A stretch of DNA of 64,000 nucleotides, taken from positions 62,001-126,000 of the forward strand of contig CASXXK010000001.1 in the NCBI GenBank assembly GCA_949480205.1. Reading direction: 5' to 3'. The notes below the pieces were generated by a model that made no database searches, was not told where the DNA came from, and worked only from the letters and a program-made list of their open reading frames with translations. This document shows positions 15,563 to 47,643 of the stretch, one piece after another; position 1 is the first letter of the stretch, and every line of letters starts with the position of its first letter. Both the position numbers and the translations under genes were made by a program. The stretch is from an uncultured Candidatus Saccharibacteria bacterium. GTDB taxonomy: Bacteria > Patescibacteriota > Saccharimonadia > Saccharimonadales > Saccharimonadaceae.

Positions 15563-16954
15563 ATGAAGCGAGGTATAGTGAAAAAGATTTCAACTTATTT
15601 GTTGTATAGTTTACCAGTGATTTTCTTTGCCGTATGCTATTTTTGCATGACGGTATGGGGCGAGGATATCATCCAAGGTGCAGGCACCAGTCCAGATATT
15701 TGGAACGACATCGTGGGGGCGTTTCGGCACAATTCTAGGCTTAGCGATATGTACGCTTGGACGGTGATAAATTTCTTTGATTTTCAATATAGTTTTGGGG
15801 TGGATACGATTTTCCGATTGATCGACGTAGCGATGGCGACGGGAATAATTTATCTACTCACCAGTCTAATTCTGAGGCGTTGGCCAAAATTGCAACTTAA
15901 GGATTCCTTGGTGTTCGCCCTGAGCTTTTTGGTGATTTTTATCACGCCGCACGGTTACACGCTCTATCGTGGGTTCTCAGTAATCCATAATTACCTGATT
16001 ATTGGACTTTCGACGGCGGCGTTTGTGCTGCCTTGGGTACGGAGTTTTGTTGGACAAACCATGCCAAAACTGTACCAAAAGTGGTGGTTCGCACTGCTAA
16101 TTGGGTTGATTTTTGGGATGTCGTCGAATATCACGCCAATCGCATTCTTAATTAGTTTTATCCTGATAAAACTCTGGCAGGTGTGGCGAGAAAAATCCTG
16201 GAAGCAGGCATGGAAATTGCCAGCTTGGCAAATTTGGATGCTACTGGGGATGGTTATTACTGTGGCTGTGGCCTATGTTTTTGGCGCCGGAGTATCAACT
16301 TATGCCAACAACCCAGTTTATACCGAAACCTATGATTACCTGGCGTTTGGTGAAATTTTTGCCAACTTCGGTGGCTCCGTGATCCGGATTATCAAGCATG
16401 TAGTGGTGAATTTTGGTTATAGTTTTGGGCTAGTTGGAGTGATGGCCGTAGTTTTGGGTGGTCTGGCTGCAGCAGTAAGCAAGATTAGGGGGCGAAAATT
16501 CGTCATCCTGCCCAGAGACACAGCAGAACGTCGAGTATTGGTGGTTTGCGTAATATTTGCGGCAGTATATCTACTTTGCGGGTCGCAAATTATGCTCCCG
16601 GTGCGACTAGCCTTGCCAGCCTACTTGGCCCTGACGGTGACTTTAGGGATACTAATGCATCACTGGTGGATTAAATCTGATTTGGTCGAAAACGTGGCCC
16701 TTGGCGCACTAATGATTATAGTGATGTTAGCGATGGTGATTATCAAGGCGGATTTTGCGTTGGAATATCGGGCGGAAATGGCGGAAGTTTTGGCGACGAT
16801 AGAGGAAACGCCAACGGAGGTGGTTTGCATTAGCTCCAATATTGCTAAACCCCGGCATTTGCCGATTGTAAACTTGGGTCAGGATGAGACCTTGGCCGAG
16901 TGGGCGTTGCCGTATTTGACGGTGTATGGGAAAGAAGTGAGAATTTGCGAATAG
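15563..16954 (+). CDS. polytopic membrane protein (DUF6056-like)
   Basis: 463 aa with many TM segments; extended -10 TGCTATAATAG just upstream. Confidence 0.75.
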   Translation: MKRGIVKKISTYLLYSLPVIFFAVCYFCMTVWGEDIIQGAGTSPDIWNDIVGAFRHNSRLSDMYAWTVINFFDFQYSFGVDTIFRLIDVAMATGIIYLLTSLILRRWPKLQLKDSLVFALSFLVIFITPHGYTLYRGFSVIHNYLIIGLSTAAFVLPWVRSFVGQTMPKLYQKWWFALLIGLIFGMSSNITPIAFLISFILIKLWQVWREKSWKQAWKLPAWQIWMLLGMVITVAVAYVFGAGVSTYANNPVYTETYDYLAFGEIFANFGGSVIRIIKHVVVNFGYSFGLVGVMAVVLGGLAAAVSKIRGRKFVILPRDTAERRVLVVCVIFAAVYLLCGSQIMLPVRLALPAYLALTVTLGILMHHWWIKSDLVENVALGALMIIVMLAMVIIKADFALEYRAEMAEVLATIEETPTEVVCISSNIAKPRHLPIVNLGQDETLAEWALPYLTVYGKEVRICE

Positions 16955-16966
16955 CAATGTCTTTAC

Positions 16967-17190
16967 TTCGTGCGCAGCGGGCATGCTTTGTTGAGTGATG
17001 GAGAGCTGCAGACGATCGGACAGAGTGGGTATTTATGGTCATCATATGGCTATCTGGCATCATGGGATGGTGCCAATGTACCTAGTGCTCGTGTCGTTGG
17101 CATTGGTGATGCTAGTATAAACTCGTCAGCTGGTCCAGCCTTCCGTTGGTATGGTCTCCCCCTCCGCTGCCTTAGTACTGTATTAGACAT
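16967..17190 (+). repeat. FISUMP/C-type-lectin-like cassette A (promoterless C-terminal half-domain)
   Basis: 5' box TTCGTGCGCAGCGGG; 3' box CCCTCCGCTGCCTTAGTACTGTATTAGACAT; encodes FVRSG...GYLWSSYGYL...GLPLRCLSTVLD. Confidence 0.85.
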
Positions 17191-17349: not shown

Positions 17350-19248
17350 CTATTTGTTATCTACAACTTCCCCTTCTACGGCGTCGCCGTCATCGCTTCC
17401 GGAATTATCCATCGGCTCAGCAGTCGGTTTCTCGTCTTCAGACTTAGATTGATACATCTTGGCACCAATTGGCATCAGGACGTTGTTGAGGGCCTTCTGA
17501 GCCTCTTCAAGCTTCTCTTTATCGGCGGCAGAATCCTCAAGCACCTTCTTGGCTTCGGCCACAGCATCCTTGATAGCCTTGGCGTCATCCTCGGAGATCT
17601 TATCCTTAAACTCTTCAGGCATCTTCTCGGCCTGATAGATAGCATTTTCGAGTTGGTTTTTAGCGTCGATTGCTTCACGCTTCTTCTTATCTTCGTCAGC
17701 GTGAGCTTCGGCTTCCTTCTGAGCCTTCTCGATGTCTTCTTTGCTCATGTTGCCGGAGTTCTGGATGGTGATAGATTGCTCTTTGCCGGTTCCCTTGTCT
17801 TTGGCGGTCACATTCAAGATACCGTTAGCATCAAGGTTGAAGGTCACCTCAATCTGAGGCACACCACGTGGGGCGGGAGCGATACCGTCAAGGATGAAAC
17901 GGCCAAGAGACTTGTTGTCGGCGGCCATTTCGCGCTCACCCTGCAAGACATGGATCTCTACCTGTGGCTGGTTATCAGCAGCAGTGGAGAAGACCTCAGA
18001 CTTGCTAGTAGGGATGGTAGTGTTGCGCTCAATCAACTTAGTGCTCACGCCGCCCATAGTCTCGATACCGAGAGAAAGCGGAGTGACATCAAGCAAAAGC
18101 ACGTCTTTGACATCGCCTTGCAAGACACCACCTTGGATGGCGGCACCTACAGCCACAACTTCGTCTGGGTTAACGCCCTGCATTGGGTCTTTACCGAAGA
18201 TTTTCTTGACTTCTTCAATCACGGCCGGCATGCGGGTCATACCACCCACCATCACAACTTCGTCGATATCTTTGGCGCTAAGCTTAGCATCGGCGAGAGC
18301 CTTCTCAACAGGACCTGCCAAGCGCTCCAAGAGAGGCTTAACCAATTCTTCGAGCTTGGCGCGAGTCAAAGTATACTCAAAGTGCTTGGGGCCGTCGGCG
18401 TCAGCGGTCAAGAATGGTAAGTTAATCTCAACTTCTTTGGCGCTAGAAAGCTCTTTCTTAGCCTTCTCGGCTTCGTCTTTGACGCGTTGCATCGCAGCAG
18501 CATCGTTCTTGATGTCGATACCAGACTCTTTCTTGAACTCATCCAAGAGGAAGTTAACAATAATGTTGTCGAAATCTTCACCACCGAGGTGAGTATCACC
18601 GTTGGTGGACTTAACTTCAAACACACCATCGCCGAGCTCGAGGATGGAAACATCGAAAGTACCGCCACCAAGGTCGAAAACGGCGATTTGCTCGTCTTTC
18701 TTGCTCTCAAGACCATAGGCCAAAGCCGCAGCGGTTGGCTCGTTGATGATACGCTTTACCTCAAGGCCGGCAATTTTACCAGCGTCTTTAGTAGCTTGGC
18801 GTTGCGAGTCGTCGAAGTAGGCCGGGACGGTAATAATCGCCTCGGTAACAGGTTCGCCAAGGAAAGCCTCGGCATCTGCCTTAATCTTGGAAAGAATCAT
18901 TGCAGAAATTTCTTCTGGAGTGTATTCTTTACCGTCCATCTCGACAGCCACACCATTGCCTTTTTTGACAATTTTGTAAGGCATGATATCAAGATCACGT
19001 TGAACTTCTTTGTCGTCGAATTTACGACCAATCAAACGCTTAATACCGTAAATTGTGTTCTTTGGATTGGTAACGCGCTGACGTTGAGCAACTTTACCGA
19101 CTAAGCGGTCACCCTTCTTAGTGACAGCAACAACGCTAGGCGTGGTGCGATCACCTTCGCTATTGGCGATAACCTCTGGCTTACCAGCCACCATGTAAGC
19201 GAAGGCGCTGTTGGTGGTGCCGAGGTCAATACCGATAATTTTTGACAT
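17350..19248 (-). CDS. dnaK: chaperone DnaK (Hsp70)
   Basis: [19 protein letters not shown]; full-length Hsp70. Confidence 0.99.
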
Positions 19249-20167: not shown

Positions 20168-20383
20168 TTCTACATAGTCTAATACAGTACTAAGGCAGCG
20201 GAGGGGGAAACCGTAGTGACGACTACCATAGCTCGAGGGATTGACGATGCCAGCATCGAAGCGAAGGAAGTATGTGTTCGTGGTTGAGGAATATGGGCGC
20301 GATGACCACTCATACCCATTCTGACTAGCAACCCGCAAGGTTCCAGTAGTAACAGTCAAATTAAAATACCCGCTGCGCACGAA
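20168..20383 (-). repeat. FISUMP/C-type-lectin-like cassette B
   Basis: Reverse complement begins TTCGTGCGCAGCGGG and ends TTTCCCCCTCCGCTGCCTTAGTACTGTATTAGACTATGTAGA; encodes FVRSGYFNLTVTTGTLRVASQNGYEWSSR...GFPLRCLSTVLD. Confidence 0.85.
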
Positions 20384-21119: not shown

Positions 21120-21342
21120 TTCGTGCGCAGCGGGAGATTCGATTTGGCTACGAAAGCGGGTATACTTGGATATGTTGACCCAAGCGGCTTCTGGTGGTCT
21201 TCGCGAGCTGTCATTTACTCTTCTAGTACCTTAGCTAATGCTTATAGCCTCTATTTTAGTTCTACAACAGTTAATCCATTAAATGGCCCATCCAATCGTT
21301 ACGCTGGTTTCCCCCTCCGCTGCCTTAGTACTGTATTAGACA
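21120..21342 (+). repeat. FISUMP/C-type-lectin-like cassette C
   Basis: 5' box TTCGTGCGCAGCGGG at 21120; 3' box at 21308-21342; FVRSGRFDLATKAGILGYVDPSGFWWSSRA...NRYAGFPLRCLSTVLDM. Confidence 0.85.
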
Positions 21343-21436
21343 TGGCGAATACAAAAGCTTCGCCGGCAAGTTTGGCCACAAGAACAATGAGCAATTAGGA
21401 GTCACCGTTACCTATTTACCAGTGTTCAAATAAAAA

Positions 21437-32368: not shown

Positions 32369-33394
32369 ATGAACAAAGAGAAAGTTTTGTTGACAGGTGG
32401 TACCGGATTTATTGGTTCACATACTGCCGTGGAGTTGATTCAGGCGGGTTATGAAGTAGAAATTCTGGATAATTTATACAATAGTAAAATCACTGCACTA
32501 GATAATATTGAGCAAATCACGGGCGTACGGCCAAAGTTTTATGAGGTAGATATTCGTGACGGTGACGCCTTGGCAAAGGTGTTTGCGGAAGGTCACTTTG
32601 ATAGCGTGATTCATTTTGCTGGGCTCAAAGCCGTGGGTGAATCCGTGGAGAAACCGCTCACTTACTACGAAGTGAATATTGGCGGGACAATTAATTTGCT
32701 GGAGTGTATGCAAGAATTTGGCGTGCACAAGATTATTTTTTCTTCGTCAGCTACGGTGTATGGTGAGCCTGATTCCCCGCTTTGCGTGGAGGATTTGCCG
32801 GTGGGACGTAATTTGGCCAACCCTTACGGGCGCACAAAGTATTTTATCGAAGAAATCTTGCGCGATGTTGCCGTGAGCGACCCGAATTTTCAAGTAACAA
32901 TTTTGCGTTACTTTAACCCAATTGGTGCACACGCTTCTGGGCTACTTGGCGAAGACCCTAACGATAAACCAAATAATCTAATGCCGATTGTGATGAAAGT
33001 GGCAGCGGGAGAAATTCCTGAATTGTCGATTTATGGAAATGATTACGACACACCAGATGGAACTTGCATCCGTGATTATATCCACGTGGTGGATCTAGCA
33101 AAAGGTCACGTGGCAGCAGTGAAGAAAATTGGTAACGGTGAGCAAGTACAGGTATATAATTTGGGAACTGGAAGTGGCTTATCCGTGATGGAGATTGTCA
33201 AAGCGTTTTCTAAGGCTAGTGGTTTTGCCTTGCCGCATAAAATTGTGGGGCGTCGGGCGGGCGACTTGGCTGCACTTTGTGCCAATCCGAGCCATGCCGA
33301 GAAAGAACTAGGCTGGAAGACTGAGCTAACAATTGATGACGCGATGCGTGATACGCTAAACTATTTGAAGCATCAAGGCGTAGAGATTAAATAA
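32369..33394 (+). CDS. galE: UDP-glucose 4-epimerase
   Basis: LLTGGTGFIGSHTAVELIQAGYEVEILDNL...SSSATVYGEP...GTCIRDYIHVVDLAKGH. Confidence 0.95.
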   Translation: MNKEKVLLTGGTGFIGSHTAVELIQAGYEVEILDNLYNSKITALDNIEQITGVRPKFYEVDIRDGDALAKVFAEGHFDSVIHFAGLKAVGESVEKPLTYYEVNIGGTINLLECMQEFGVHKIIFSSSATVYGEPDSPLCVEDLPVGRNLANPYGRTKYFIEEILRDVAVSDPNFQVTILRYFNPIGAHASGLLGEDPNDKPNNLMPIVMKVAAGEIPELSIYGNDYDTPDGTCIRDYIHVVDLAKGHVAAVKKIGNGEQVQVYNLGTGSGLSVMEIVKAFSKASGFALPHKIVGRRAGDLAALCANPSHAEKELGWKTELTIDDAMRDTLNYLKHQGVEIK

Positions 33395-33397
33395 TCT

Positions 33398-33608
33398 CTA
33401 CATAGTCTTAATACAGTACTAAGGCAGCGGAGGGAGCGACCAACATAACGACCACCTTCGTACGACGAGGCGACTGCCGTAGCGAAGTCGAGGTAATAAG
33501 CAGTTGTAGACGTCGAAGCCGCTCGCGACGACCACCATAGGCCTTCGTAGCTAGCGTACCGAAAAGTACCAGCAGCAATAGTCGGAGCAAAGACCCCGCT
33601 GCGCACGA
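33398..33608 (-). repeat. FISUMP/C-type-lectin-like cassette D (degenerate 3' frame)
   Basis: Reverse complement TCGTGCGCAGCGGG ... CCCTCCGCTGCCTTAGTACTGTATTAAGAC (one extra A); VRSGVFAPTIAAGTFRYASYEGLWWSSRAASTSTTAYYLDF. Confidence 0.83.
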
Positions 33609-33684
33609 TATTTTGCGGCCTTAACAAAAATTAAAAAGTAATAAGGCATGTTGTTTGAAATAACAGGGGTAGAATAATTTTTGG

Positions 33685-33714
33685 ACCTTATCGTTTTTTA
33701 AAAAACGATAAGGT
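33685..33714. repeat. 30-bp perfect palindrome between cassettes D and E
   Basis: accttatcgttttttaaaaaacgataaggt. Confidence 0.7.
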
Positions 33715-33732
33715 AACATAATATCAAATATT

Positions 33733-33960
33733 TTCGTGCGCAGCGGGCGTATCAATTTGACTGTTTCGGCAGGTACATTAGGGTACGCTGACCAGTACGG
33801 CCACTGGTGGCCGTCACGGGCGGCTGCTTATACGTCTTCTACCTCGGCGACTGCTTATTATCTCGATTTTAGAGATACAGCGGTTTACCCATCGAATGGC
33901 CCGGTTAATCGTTGGAATGGTTTCCCCCTCCGCTGCCTTAGTACTGTATTAGACATGTAG
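33733..33960 (+). repeat. FISUMP/C-type-lectin-like cassette E
   Basis: TTCGTGCGCAGCGGG ... TTTCCCCCTCCGCTGCCTTAGTACTGTATTAGACATGTAG; VRSGRINLTVSAGTLGYADQYGHWWPSRAAAYTSSTSATAYYLDF...GFPLRCLSTVLDM. Confidence 0.87.
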
Positions 33961-33985
33961 AGTGTGTAGAGGGCGGATAGCACAG

Positions 33986-35029
33986 TCATCTAAACTGATT
34001 ATACAGTTTCCAGGCGAGTTTGAATACCGGACGCCCCAGCAAGAGGGAGCGCATAGCGAGACGATCACGCCGGTTAGCATCAGGACAGTGTAAAACCCAA
34101 TTTTTATGTTGCAAAAGGTAGGATGTGATTCCCTGCTCGACTTGCTGGAATTTGACTTGATTTTCAGGAGTAGGTTTAGCTAAGACCATCTGACGCAAGA
34201 TACTGAAACGTGCGTGCATGCGGCGAAGATTCGTGACATTTTGGAGATTTGGGAACTTAGCATCAATATCGTCACACATTTGGTCGGTCAGTTCAATTAA
34301 ATCTAACTTATGAAAATTAAAGTTTTGGTGAATAATGGAGCCAGCATTTTGATGATAATAATAAATCGGAACAGGCGAAAAAGAGACGTATTGTGGACAT
34401 TGCATAACGAGGCGATAAGTAGTGCCAACATCCTCATATAACTTTCCTACTGGGAACTGGACAGTTTTGAACAAATCACGATGGTAGAGTTTTCCACAGG
34501 CAGACATAGTAAACCCCTGCTCTAAGAGCATGTAGCGCAGGCAGTCTTCCACAGTGAAACTTTGACGTTCGACCTCGCTTGGCATAATGCACCCTTTTTC
34601 CCAAGATACTGCGCCAGGAATGGCGTGCCGTTTGCCGTTTGGCGCTACTTCGGTAAAAGAGCAAACTCGCACAGGATCATTGCGAAGGCTACTTAATTCC
34701 GCTAACATATCTGGGTAAATTGCGTCATCGGAATCCACAAAAGTGATATACTCGCCTTGAGCAATTTTGATGCCAGCGTTACGCGCAACAGAAAGGCCAG
34801 CGTTCTTTTGATGTAGAACGCGAATATTCTGGTGCTGCTTAGCAAGTTGGTCACATAATTCCCCAGCGCCGTCAGGGGAGCCGTCGTCCACCAAAATAAT
34901 CTCAAAATTGGGATAAGTTTGCCAGAGGATAGAATTGACACAACGCTCAAGCGTGGATTTAGTGTTATAAACTGGAACAATGACCGAGACTAAATCGAGT
35001 TTTTTAAACACGGTTCTGAATCTCATCAA
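33986..35029 (-). CDS. glycosyltransferase family 2
   Basis: VSVIVPVYNTKSTLERCVNSILWQTYPNFEIILVDDGSPDGAGELCD. Confidence 0.92.
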   Translation of the reverse strand: MMRFRTVFKKLDLVSVIVPVYNTKSTLERCVNSILWQTYPNFEIILVDDGSPDGAGELCDQLAKQHQNIRVLHQKNAGLSVARNAGIKIAQGEYITFVDSDDAIYPDMLAELSSLRNDPVRVCSFTEVAPNGKRHAIPGAVSWEKGCIMPSEVERQSFTVEDCLRYMLLEQGFTMSACGKLYHRDLFKTVQFPVGKLYEDVGTTYRLVMQCPQYVSFSPVPIYYYHQNAGSIIHQNFNFHKLDLIELTDQMCDDIDAKFPNLQNVTNLRRMHARFSILRQMVLAKPTPENQVKFQQVEQGITSYLLQHKNWVLHCPDANRRDRLAMRSLLLGRPVFKLAWKLYNQFR

Positions 35030-42325: not shown

Positions 42326-44527
42326 CTATTGAGCCTTACGAAGCTGCCACTTTTGCGGGTCCCCACCATTTTTGGCCCAAAGTTGAATATTAGTTTCGTT
42401 ATCGGTGTAGCCACCATAACAGTCCAGGGCTTTGCTTGTATCGCAGGTTGAGATAAACTGGTAAGAGTCATCGCCATTTGAGATGATACGCCAGCGCTGG
42501 TTGCAGTTATTGTTACGATCCCAGATTTGGATATTGGTATTGTTGGCCGTGTAAGAACCGTATAAGTCAAGCGCTCGGCCAGAGGCAGGGTTCACCAAAG
42601 TATAATCATCCGTGGTGGGGTTATAGGTAATTTGCCAAACCTGCGAAGCGCGACCGTGGTAGTCGAAGAGCTGAACATTAGTGCTATTGGCAGTATAACC
42701 ACCATAAACATCAATTGCTTTGTATGGGGCTGACTTCATCAAAATACTATACCGTCCATCTGCTACGACCGGTGTAACCGGAGTAAAAATCCAGCGGTTA
42801 GCGGCGTTGCCAACGTTAGCCCAAAGCTGAATGTTAGCACCATTGACGGCAGAATTATTAGCAATGGAAATACTATAATTGAGCGAACAGGCTGAGACTA
42901 GAGCATACGCATTATTAGATTGTGGAACAATTTTCCACTTTTGTGCGCAAGAAGAATTGCGACTCCATAGCGCAATATTGGCGCCATTTTTAGCATTAGC
43001 GTATTTGACATCTAACGCTTTACCCGTGGCAGGGTTATAAATCGTATAAAAATCAGTTTTACTGTCATATGCAACATACCACTTTTGGTGAGCGCCGCCA
43101 TGATACTGCCAAAGTTCAATATTAGCACCGTCGTAAGTATATTCTTTATAGATTTCGATACTTTGATTCTGATTAAGTCGAGATTGCAGATTGTAAACTC
43201 CGTCAGCTACTGTGCGTCCGGTCTTGAGCACCCATTTTTGTTGGTTGCTGCCAGTGCTGAGCCATAGTTGGACATTGGTACTGGCCTGGTTGACACCAGA
43301 TTGTGCATCTAGAACCATACCTGTCATACAGGCCGATTCGATAATCAGCTGATCGTTTTGTTCGTAAAGCTTCCATTGCTGTGAGCAAGCGGGACCAGTA
43401 GTCCAGAGTTGGATATTTTGTCCATTATTGGCAGCCGCCTTGTTGAGGTCTAGCCGTTTGCCGGTGGCAACGTGGGTGATGTTGTAGTATCCAGTAGTTT
43501 GATCATACTTGAAACTCCATTTCTGGTTTTTGTCGTTGAGGTTGTACTCAGCTAGTTGGACATTGGTACCATCAGTGCTGCCGTTTGCAATACCGAGCGC
43601 CTTGGTATCAGAAACTCCTGAAGCTAAAACATATTCTCCGTCTGGAATCACGATTGGCGTACCAGTAACCGCGGCTTGTGTGCTACCGAACCAATCGGTG
43701 AAGTAAAGATAGAAGTTACGGTTACCATAAGCTGAGCAGCTGTCACCCGTGCCGTAACCTGCCGCAAGGGCTGAAGCATTGGGTTGATATGGAGTGTAAC
43801 GGTAGAGAGCAGCAGTGGCGCGATTTTCGATATAAACTTCGCTGCGGCCGCAAGCTGAACTTGGGTTGTAACCAATGTAGATTCCCTTTTTCTGTTCTGG
43901 ATAGGCAGAATAGCCATTATCTAGCACATCGCGGAAAAGCGCAGCTGCATGGCGGACTTGGTTTTTGAAACCGTAATATTTGGTATCACAAGCCGCGGTA
44001 TCAGGACAACCGTAGCCAGTCGCGGAACGATATTGCTTAGAGTTGGGATAAGTGTCAGTGATGAGACTTTGCTCTTTTTCTAGTAAAACAATCAAAACTT
44101 GGGGGTTAATTCTGTAATCTTGAGCGGCTTGATAAATAATTTCGGCAGCAGTCTGGCCTTCGCCAATTACGGTGCCGTCACCAAATTTCTCTTCCGACAA
44201 ACAAACAAAGTGCCCATTTTCAAAATGCCAGTCAAGATTGGGGTACTGTTTTTTGAGCTCCTCGTACCGAGCGGCGTTTTTATTGTTGCAAGGGTTCTTT
44301 TTGGTGAGAAAAGCTTGGATTTCATCTTTAGTCATGGAATTGTAGTTGCTCATCACGGCGTCGCTAATAATGTTGCCAGGCTTAAAATCGCTCAGCGAAG
44401 CAGCTGAAGATTCATGCATACTGCGCGTAGCCAAGAAAGATAGCGTAGCCACCATACAAAATGCAAAAATCACCAAGACTAGACCACGATACTTGCGCAA
44501 ATCGTCGACTGTACTTTTGATACTCAT
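42326..44527 (-). CDS. secreted protein with N-terminal hydrolase-like domain and tandem ricin-type beta-trefoil lectin domains
   Basis: Repeated Q-x-W motifs (NQKWSF, SQQWKLY, NQQKWVL, HQKWYV, CAQKWKI, CNQRWRI, PQKWQL) and NIQLW blocks. Confidence 0.88.
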   Translation of the reverse strand: MSIKSTVDDLRKYRGLVLVIFAFCMVATLSFLATRSMHESSAASLSDFKPGNIISDAVMSNYNSMTKDEIQAFLTKKNPCNNKNAARYEELKKQYPNLDWHFENGHFVCLSEEKFGDGTVIGEGQTAAEIIYQAAQDYRINPQVLIVLLEKEQSLITDTYPNSKQYRSATGYGCPDTAACDTKYYGFKNQVRHAAALFRDVLDNGYSAYPEQKKGIYIGYNPSSACGRSEVYIENRATAALYRYTPYQPNASALAAGYGTGDSCSAYGNRNFYLYFTDWFGSTQAAVTGTPIVIPDGEYVLASGVSDTKALGIANGSTDGTNVQLAEYNLNDKNQKWSFKYDQTTGYYNITHVATGKRLDLNKAAANNGQNIQLWTTGPACSQQWKLYEQNDQLIIESACMTGMVLDAQSGVNQASTNVQLWLSTGSNQQKWVLKTGRTVADGVYNLQSRLNQNQSIEIYKEYTYDGANIELWQYHGGAHQKWYVAYDSKTDFYTIYNPATGKALDVKYANAKNGANIALWSRNSSCAQKWKIVPQSNNAYALVSACSLNYSISIANNSAVNGANIQLWANVGNAANRWIFTPVTPVVADGRYSILMKSAPYKAIDVYGGYTANSTNVQLFDYHGRASQVWQITYNPTTDDYTLVNPASGRALDLYGSYTANNTNIQIWDRNNNCNQRWRIISNGDDSYQFISTCDTSKALDCYGGYTDNETNIQLWAKNGGDPQKWQLRKAQ

Positions 44528-47425: not shown

Positions 47426-47643
47426 CTACATGTCTAATACAGCACTAAGGCAGCGGAGGGGGAAAGCATACCAGCGACCATATGGTCCAGCGGAGGGGTT
47501 GAGTTCAGTGCCGACAAATTCGAAACTGTATGCATAAGCAACGTTGGCTCCGCGTGAAGACCAGAGATCACTATATTGCCCGGCAACCTTAAAAGTATTA
47601 TCATTGTTCCCTCTGGGTAGTTCGATCCACCCGCTGCGCACGA
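47426..47643 (-). repeat. FISUMP/C-type-lectin-like cassette F
   Basis: Reverse complement CTCGTGCGCAGCGGG ... TTTCCCCCTCCGCTGCCTTAGTGCTGTATTAGACATGTAGGA; VRSGWIELPRGNNDNTFKVAGQYSDLWSSRGANVAYAYSFEF...FPLRCLSAVLDM. Confidence 0.86.

Follow-up and report, generated by a model that had tools for sequence, protein, structure and literature searches.

The window, a 64,000-nt stretch of a Saccharibacteria genome, contained six silent variable repeat (VR) cassettes, each composed of a 5′ box, a variable interior, and a 3′ box (Table 1). Cassettes D and E formed a head-to-head pair within the 591 bp that separate galE from a glycosyltransferase gene. Exact copies of CCGCTGCCTTAGT were located at 17164 (+), 20201 (−), 21317 (+), 33430 (−), 33930 (+), and 47456 (−), and TCGTGCGCAGCGGG was found without mismatch at the corresponding 5′ ends of all six cassettes. 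When up to two mismatches to CCGCTGCCTTAGT were allowed, we observed seven matches in the window (1.2 expected; equaled in 0 of 100 shuffles). The putatively expressed gene, the template RNAs, and the reverse transcriptase (RT) of a diversity-generating retroelement (DGR) described below were all located outside the window. A 47-nt imperfect repeat in four copies (62–72% alike) was also present at 42347-43278.

Table 1 Cassettes, boxes, and neighboring genes in the window
Feature	Position	Strand	Basis or remark
Silent VR cassette A	16968..17190	+	Exact boxes; between ORF 15563-16954 and DnaK 17350-19248
Silent VR cassette B	20175..20382	-	Exact boxes; intergenic
Silent VR cassette C	21121..21343	+	Exact boxes; intergenic
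galE, left of D/E pair; 3′ end directly next to the glycosyltransferase gene in relatives	32369..33394	+	
3′ box of D (IMH-like border)	33395..33434	-	84 genome copies and column conservation
Silent VR cassette D, one extra A in 3′ box	33398..33608	-	Box matches
5′ box of D (TCGTGCGCAGCGGG)	33595..33608	-	Exact match
Spacer between 5′ boxes of D and E, palindrome CCTTATCGTTTTTTAAAAAACGATAAGG	33609..33733	.	Similar spacers at other pairs
Silent VR cassette E, head-to-head with D	33734..33960	+	Box matches
5′ box of E (TCGTGCGCAGCGGG)	33734..33747	+	Exact match
3′ box of E (IMH-like border)	33926..33962	+	Window matches, genome copies, column conservation
Glycosyltransferase gene, right of D/E pair	33986..35029	-	
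Silent VR cassette F, G for A at one box position	47430..47643	-	Exact boxes; intergenic

The genome that includes the window (G000) is a draft of 855 kb in 28 contigs (88% complete). The 22-nt 3′ box had 84 matches in this genome, 79 of which were exact, and the reversed box, used as a control, had none; in some copies the box was decayed (e.g., C7:34832). At the protein level, the cassette product was encoded at 94 places. Complete cassettes (n = 65) were taken from the window and from 38 stretches around genome matches. The frame V-R-S-G ... L-R-C-L-S-T-V was open and free of stops in all 65, the cassette length was compatible with this frame in 64, and the N-terminal part of the protein was absent from every one. 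Sixty-one cassettes did not overlap any ORF of at least 150 aa; the other four were overlapped by ORFs of 150 to 660 aa, which we read as neighboring frames fortuitously open across the cassette. The VR cassettes are most likely intergenic gene fragments that encode the tip of one surface protein, a C-terminal domain of approximately 70 residues. That they are complete small genes was considered and rejected on sequence grounds: the sole start common to all is the GTG of VRSG, in many head-to-head pairs a stop lies a few codons upstream of it, and a 12-bp spacer leaves no room for a promoter.

As the initial annotation had described, the 3′ box was longer than the 5′ box and the two carried complementary GCAGCGG/CCGCTGC cores. 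Among the 65 cassettes, the stretch TCCGCTGCCTTAGTACTGTATTA was 97–100% conserved at each column, third codon positions included, as was every column from TCC through CTGTATTA, degenerate third positions included; conservation dropped off beyond GACATGTAG. Third positions in the cassette interiors differed at approximately 39–66% between nearest neighbors. This difference between box and interior indicates that the box is held as DNA, and the earlier suggestion to that effect was borne out by the invariance of its synonymous sites across the genome copies. The extra A in the 3′ box of D (CTGTATTAAGAC), which shifts the frame after LSTVL, was likewise present and recurred in another cassette (C1:151438). 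The terminal inverted repeats exist as sequence in the window but did not hold up as a conserved or functional feature: the repeat was only 5 bp long (AGCGG/CCGCT) in the sister species G024 and was not recognizable in G013. The supposed likeness to integron attC sites, which are imperfect palindromes that fold single-stranded, was not supported, as the 3′ box formed no hairpin (z-scores of 0.29 for one strand and 0.90 for the other).

Orthologous sites without cassettes were found in about a dozen relatives, including G030, in which galE and the glycosyltransferase gene lie end to end; no target-site duplication was visible at the D/E pair. A recombination-site role had been called unlikely if the boxes varied at synonymous sites like ordinary codons or if the locus never occurred without the cassette; we observed invariant synonymous sites and empty orthologous sites. 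In head-to-head pairs elsewhere in the genome, the 5′ boxes were often 12 bp apart. The spacers of such pairs (33609-33733 in the window, and others) belonged to a small number of recurrent types, with strong palindromes (e.g., GAACTAGTAACGC..GTTACTAGTTC, CCTTATCGTTTTTTAAAAAACGATAAGG) and a TAACAGRGRTARAAT-like core, and they resemble REP or MITE-type elements. Relatives held similar libraries, with 98 matches in G013, at least 96 in G024, and at least 86 in G030. In G030, no DGR RT was found by protein query and approximately 86 diverged cassettes were present; a library can thus exist without the retroelement and may outlive it. The best match of the cassette protein in relatives was usually a single Asn-rich repeat, and several of these repeats adjoined an RT carrying the IGNLTSQ motif of DGRs.

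The initial annotation had every copy bounded by both boxes. This was too strong for ten further copies in the same genome, which shared the 5′ box and the interior and differed at the 3′ end after CCGCTGCC (GCCGCGG..GGTGCCGATCTTT, where VRs have TTAGTACTGTATTAGAC). All ten carried AAAGATCGTGA 137–193 nt upstream of the 5′ box, and CGATCTT, which is complementary to AAAGATCGTGA, closed the element in all eight copies whose examined stretch reaches it. Transcription would be expected to run from a −10-like element of the leaders to the CGATCTTT end. When the ten leaders were aligned, they showed a consensus fold with compensatory changes on both sides in 18 of 33 pairs. A covariance model of these leaders matched the stretch that immediately follows the DGR RT in three named Saccharibacteria genomes (L257-L259; 70–87 bits), and it also had six matches in the G024 stretches and further matches in G013 and G014; no Rfam family matched the leaders searched. 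All assemblies were drafts, and the three relatives with adjacent RT and leader were metagenome-assembled. The different 3′ end, the covarying leader, and the position of the leader beside the DGR RT in relatives identify the ten copies as template repeats (TRs) and the rest as VRs. Several TR genes adjoined tRNA genes (L063, L064, and L077; C1 and C6 of the same genome). At two places in G024 (L192:219 and L234:3599), the TR leader was followed by a VR-type 3′ box without the TR tail; these are apparent TR/VR hybrids.

The DGR RT (C2:65724-67010; accessory ORF, 64736-65803) contained the motifs IGNLTSQ and YVDDF and shared 70% identity with the G013 RT, which adjoins a TR. Its best PDB match was 8ub7 (E = 2e-20), which we take to be the BPP-1 DGR reverse transcriptase. 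It emerged from the protein query, and the RVT_1 scan of the genome returned only an AbiP2-type RT at C8. The latter is a separate defense RT (G000:C8:26010-27500; L099 1102-2604; PADLOC E = 7e-173). With a DGR RT and ten TR RNA genes in the genome, the earlier guess of attC-like sites or an IMH-type priming site was supported in its retrohoming half. The TR repeats match the cassettes to approximately CCGCTGCC and then diverge, as TR/IMH* does from VR/IMH, which argues for an IMH-like reading of the 3′ box. A GC-rich CCCCCTCCGCTGCC was present but without a following hairpin; a hairpin or cruciform after the IMH has been described for phage DGRs (PMC3240598) and does not belong to every DGR definition.

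VR mismatches were counted against the closest TR of the same genome by codon position. At position 1, TR adenines differed in 53% of VR positions (C, G, and T, 23–28%); at position 2, A differed in 39% and the other bases in 14–26%; at position 3, 37–62% differed, mostly by transitions. These rates point to an excess of changes at A in a protein that is otherwise constrained. If the codon frame was ignored, the A signal was weak. The pattern was cleaner in G024, where A differed in 40.5% and the other bases in 24–25% overall, and where A accounted for 210 of 421 mismatches in the 16 closest pairs, although two of the six templates used there ended like VRs and the set is not pure. Asn represented 15% of TR residues and 5% of VR residues, and TR-Asn codons were mostly N, Y, S, G, H, D, T, or A in VRs. 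The share of A among mismatches, approximately 50% for the closest pairs of G024 and 39% for those of the window's own genome, was below the 75% threshold used for accepting secondary VRs (PMC8144416). In nearest VR–VR pairs, position-1 A was also the most variable base, so part of the bias reflects the choice of variable sites. We read the A bias as a probable DGR signature on which drift and recombination are superimposed.

When the N-terminal region of the G013 target was used as a query, exactly one gene was recovered in the same genome as the window (contig C20); its product has a hydrophobic segment at the N-terminus and is weakly similar to FISUMP. Its contig stopped just before the C-terminal domain, at the expected start of the VR, and the VR expected there was not assembled; the G013 contig likewise broke at the VR of this gene. 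A repeat that the gene has in common with the silent copies would explain both breaks. G024 had a single such gene (C27), complete with 593 aa from the ATG, and its product ended LYFVRSGYIHL...NNRYFGFPVRCLVY, i.e., in a VR; the C-terminal half of this product was modeled by AlphaFold with a mean pLDDT of 44. Three features of a DGR were present: a DGR-type RT, non-coding TRs that match the VRs (10 TR genes with covarying leader), and a VR at the 3′ end of the target gene (complete in G024 C27, cut there in C20). One expression site with many silent partial copies, the arrangement of vls/pilS-type systems, was found as well (65 complete silent copies). Silent copies with longer 5′ pieces of the expressed gene occurred in G013 (C10:32241-32627; L149/L198) and at the start of G024:C11 (L192); their start points differed, as if they were 5′-truncated copies of its 3′ end. 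G013 also encoded a complete 561-aa paralogue (C5:11931-13613; L204) with a C-terminus that was not of the variable type.

The expressed VR of G024 was identical to a silent cassette of the same genome (C19:7622-7842) from TTCGTCCGTAGCGGG to GTTTGGTATA, box to box, and the flanks of the two were unrelated on both sides. Three pairs of silent cassettes in the genome of the window had fully identical interiors (C2:13530/C3:33733, C9:6016/C22:11206, and C1:135192/C10:5621), as did three further pairs in G024. Shared tracts of intermediate length were few in the former and somewhat more common in G024. The identical pairs showed no A change, which argues against passage via the mutagenic RT. Mis-assembly may account for single identical pairs, since the G024 assembly is a draft with 7% contamination in which such a pair could be a mis-join.

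That the cassettes are VRs of a DGR is well supported by the sequence comparisons. We consider it likely that they belong to a two-layer system, in which the DGR would diversify the silent VRs and whole VRs would be copied into one expressed gene at the boxes. The best explanation of the data, inferred in part, is a silent library from which a single expressed gene is supplied by copying between the boxes. In such a system, the RT (C2) and approximately ten TR RNA genes would produce A-mutated cDNA of the approximately 70-residue C-terminal domain, and the cDNAs would renew a dispersed library of approximately 90 VR cassettes in which the remainder of the gene is missing. The full-length, anchored surface gene (C20) would bear the sole expressed VR at its 3′ end, and whole cassettes would be copied between the silent loci and this gene, the direction being putatively toward the latter. 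The 5′ and 3′ boxes would be the borders and serve as homology arms; in addition, the 3′ box is probably the IMH of the retroelement. A more specific version, in which several template RNAs and the mutagenic RT would renew approximately 100 silent fragments and whole fragments would be swapped into one surface protein as a two-tier repertoire, is put forward tentatively, as a possibility that may or may not hold.

An ordinary DGR whose extra VRs are relics, i.e., ectopic intergenic cDNA insertions without a role, would fit the missing N-terminus, the intergenic insertion (at an otherwise empty junction in the one case tested), and the decay of the 3′ box in copies such as C7:34832. We regard it as unlikely, since relics would decay, yet 65 of 65 frames were free of stops and 76 of 76 G024 lengths were in frame. 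Divergence from the closest TR reached 37–62% at third positions but only 14–28% at non-A first and second positions, the box was exact in 79 of 84 copies, and one copy was identical to the expressed VR (G024). The box-to-box identity of whole cassettes between loci and the head-to-head pairs with a fixed 12-bp spacer might alternatively reflect site-specific recombination, with an integron-like or Xer-like recombinase moving the cassettes via the boxes; this is improbable, because the terminal inverted repeats were not kept in the sister species, there was no attC-like folding, and template RNAs and a DGR RT account for the sequence family without a recombinase. Mutagenic retrohoming could also act alone, the expressed gene and the silent VRs each being filled from TR RNAs with no VR–VR exchange, which would agree with the RT, the ten TRs, and the A-biased differences. 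Identical VR pairs without A change, the expressed/silent pair included, and the distance of the VRs from the TRs of their own genome (23 differences in the closest pair) make that account highly improbable. Diversification of a silent library combined with box-bounded copying remains our preferred reading.

The pilS/pilE system of Neisseria and MgPar of Mycoplasma genitalium have one expression site, many silent partial copies, and conserved borders. The same features link the present cassettes to vls of Borrelia (PMC11499132). Unlike in these three systems, the cassettes were dispersed over the genome and often in head-to-head pairs, identity was mostly over the whole cassette and not segmental, and a retroelement was attached. 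DGRs (BPP-1 type; CPR clade, Roux 2021, PMC8144416) resemble the system in the DGR RT, the accessory ORF, the TR RNA downstream of the RT (in relatives), the C-terminal VR in a surface protein, the excess of A changes, and the GC-rich 3′ end of the VR. They differ from it in that here approximately ten TR genes were dispersed, approximately 90 VRs lay outside any gene, the A bias was diluted, no hairpin followed the VR, and the TRs of the same genome were not found beside the RT. The DGR of Treponema denticola (PMC4891356) has one TR and two to seven targets that are complete genes, whereas here one expressed gene was accompanied by approximately 90 gene fragments; several remote VRs per RT are common to both, and some T. 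denticola isolates keep VRs without an RT. A highly repetitive DGR call in Pseudomonas costantinii (PMC6642488) is similar in its several TRs and approximately 91 TR–VR pairs in one genome; in that case A-to-N changes are few and a single ORF contains many VRs, whereas here the TRs had a covarying RNA leader and the VRs were intergenic. In open-licence papers searched for DGRs with silent cassettes or gene conversion, we found no system that joins both, and the combination of a DGR with a silent-cassette library appears to be undescribed.

DGRs are abundant in Patescibacteria, and here one was tied to an archive of ready-made variants that takes up approximately 2% of a genome smaller than a megabase. 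In genomes of this kind, the expressed variable domain can be the very point at which a draft contig ends. An archive of this kind suggests that selection to vary a single surface protein is strong in an obligate epibiont, and the variation would be directed toward host bacteria or phages, probably to fit changing hosts or to escape phages. The system makes retrohoming and gene conversion in series a testable question, and the two-tier reading, if true, would join hypermutation and cassette switching in one bacterial system.
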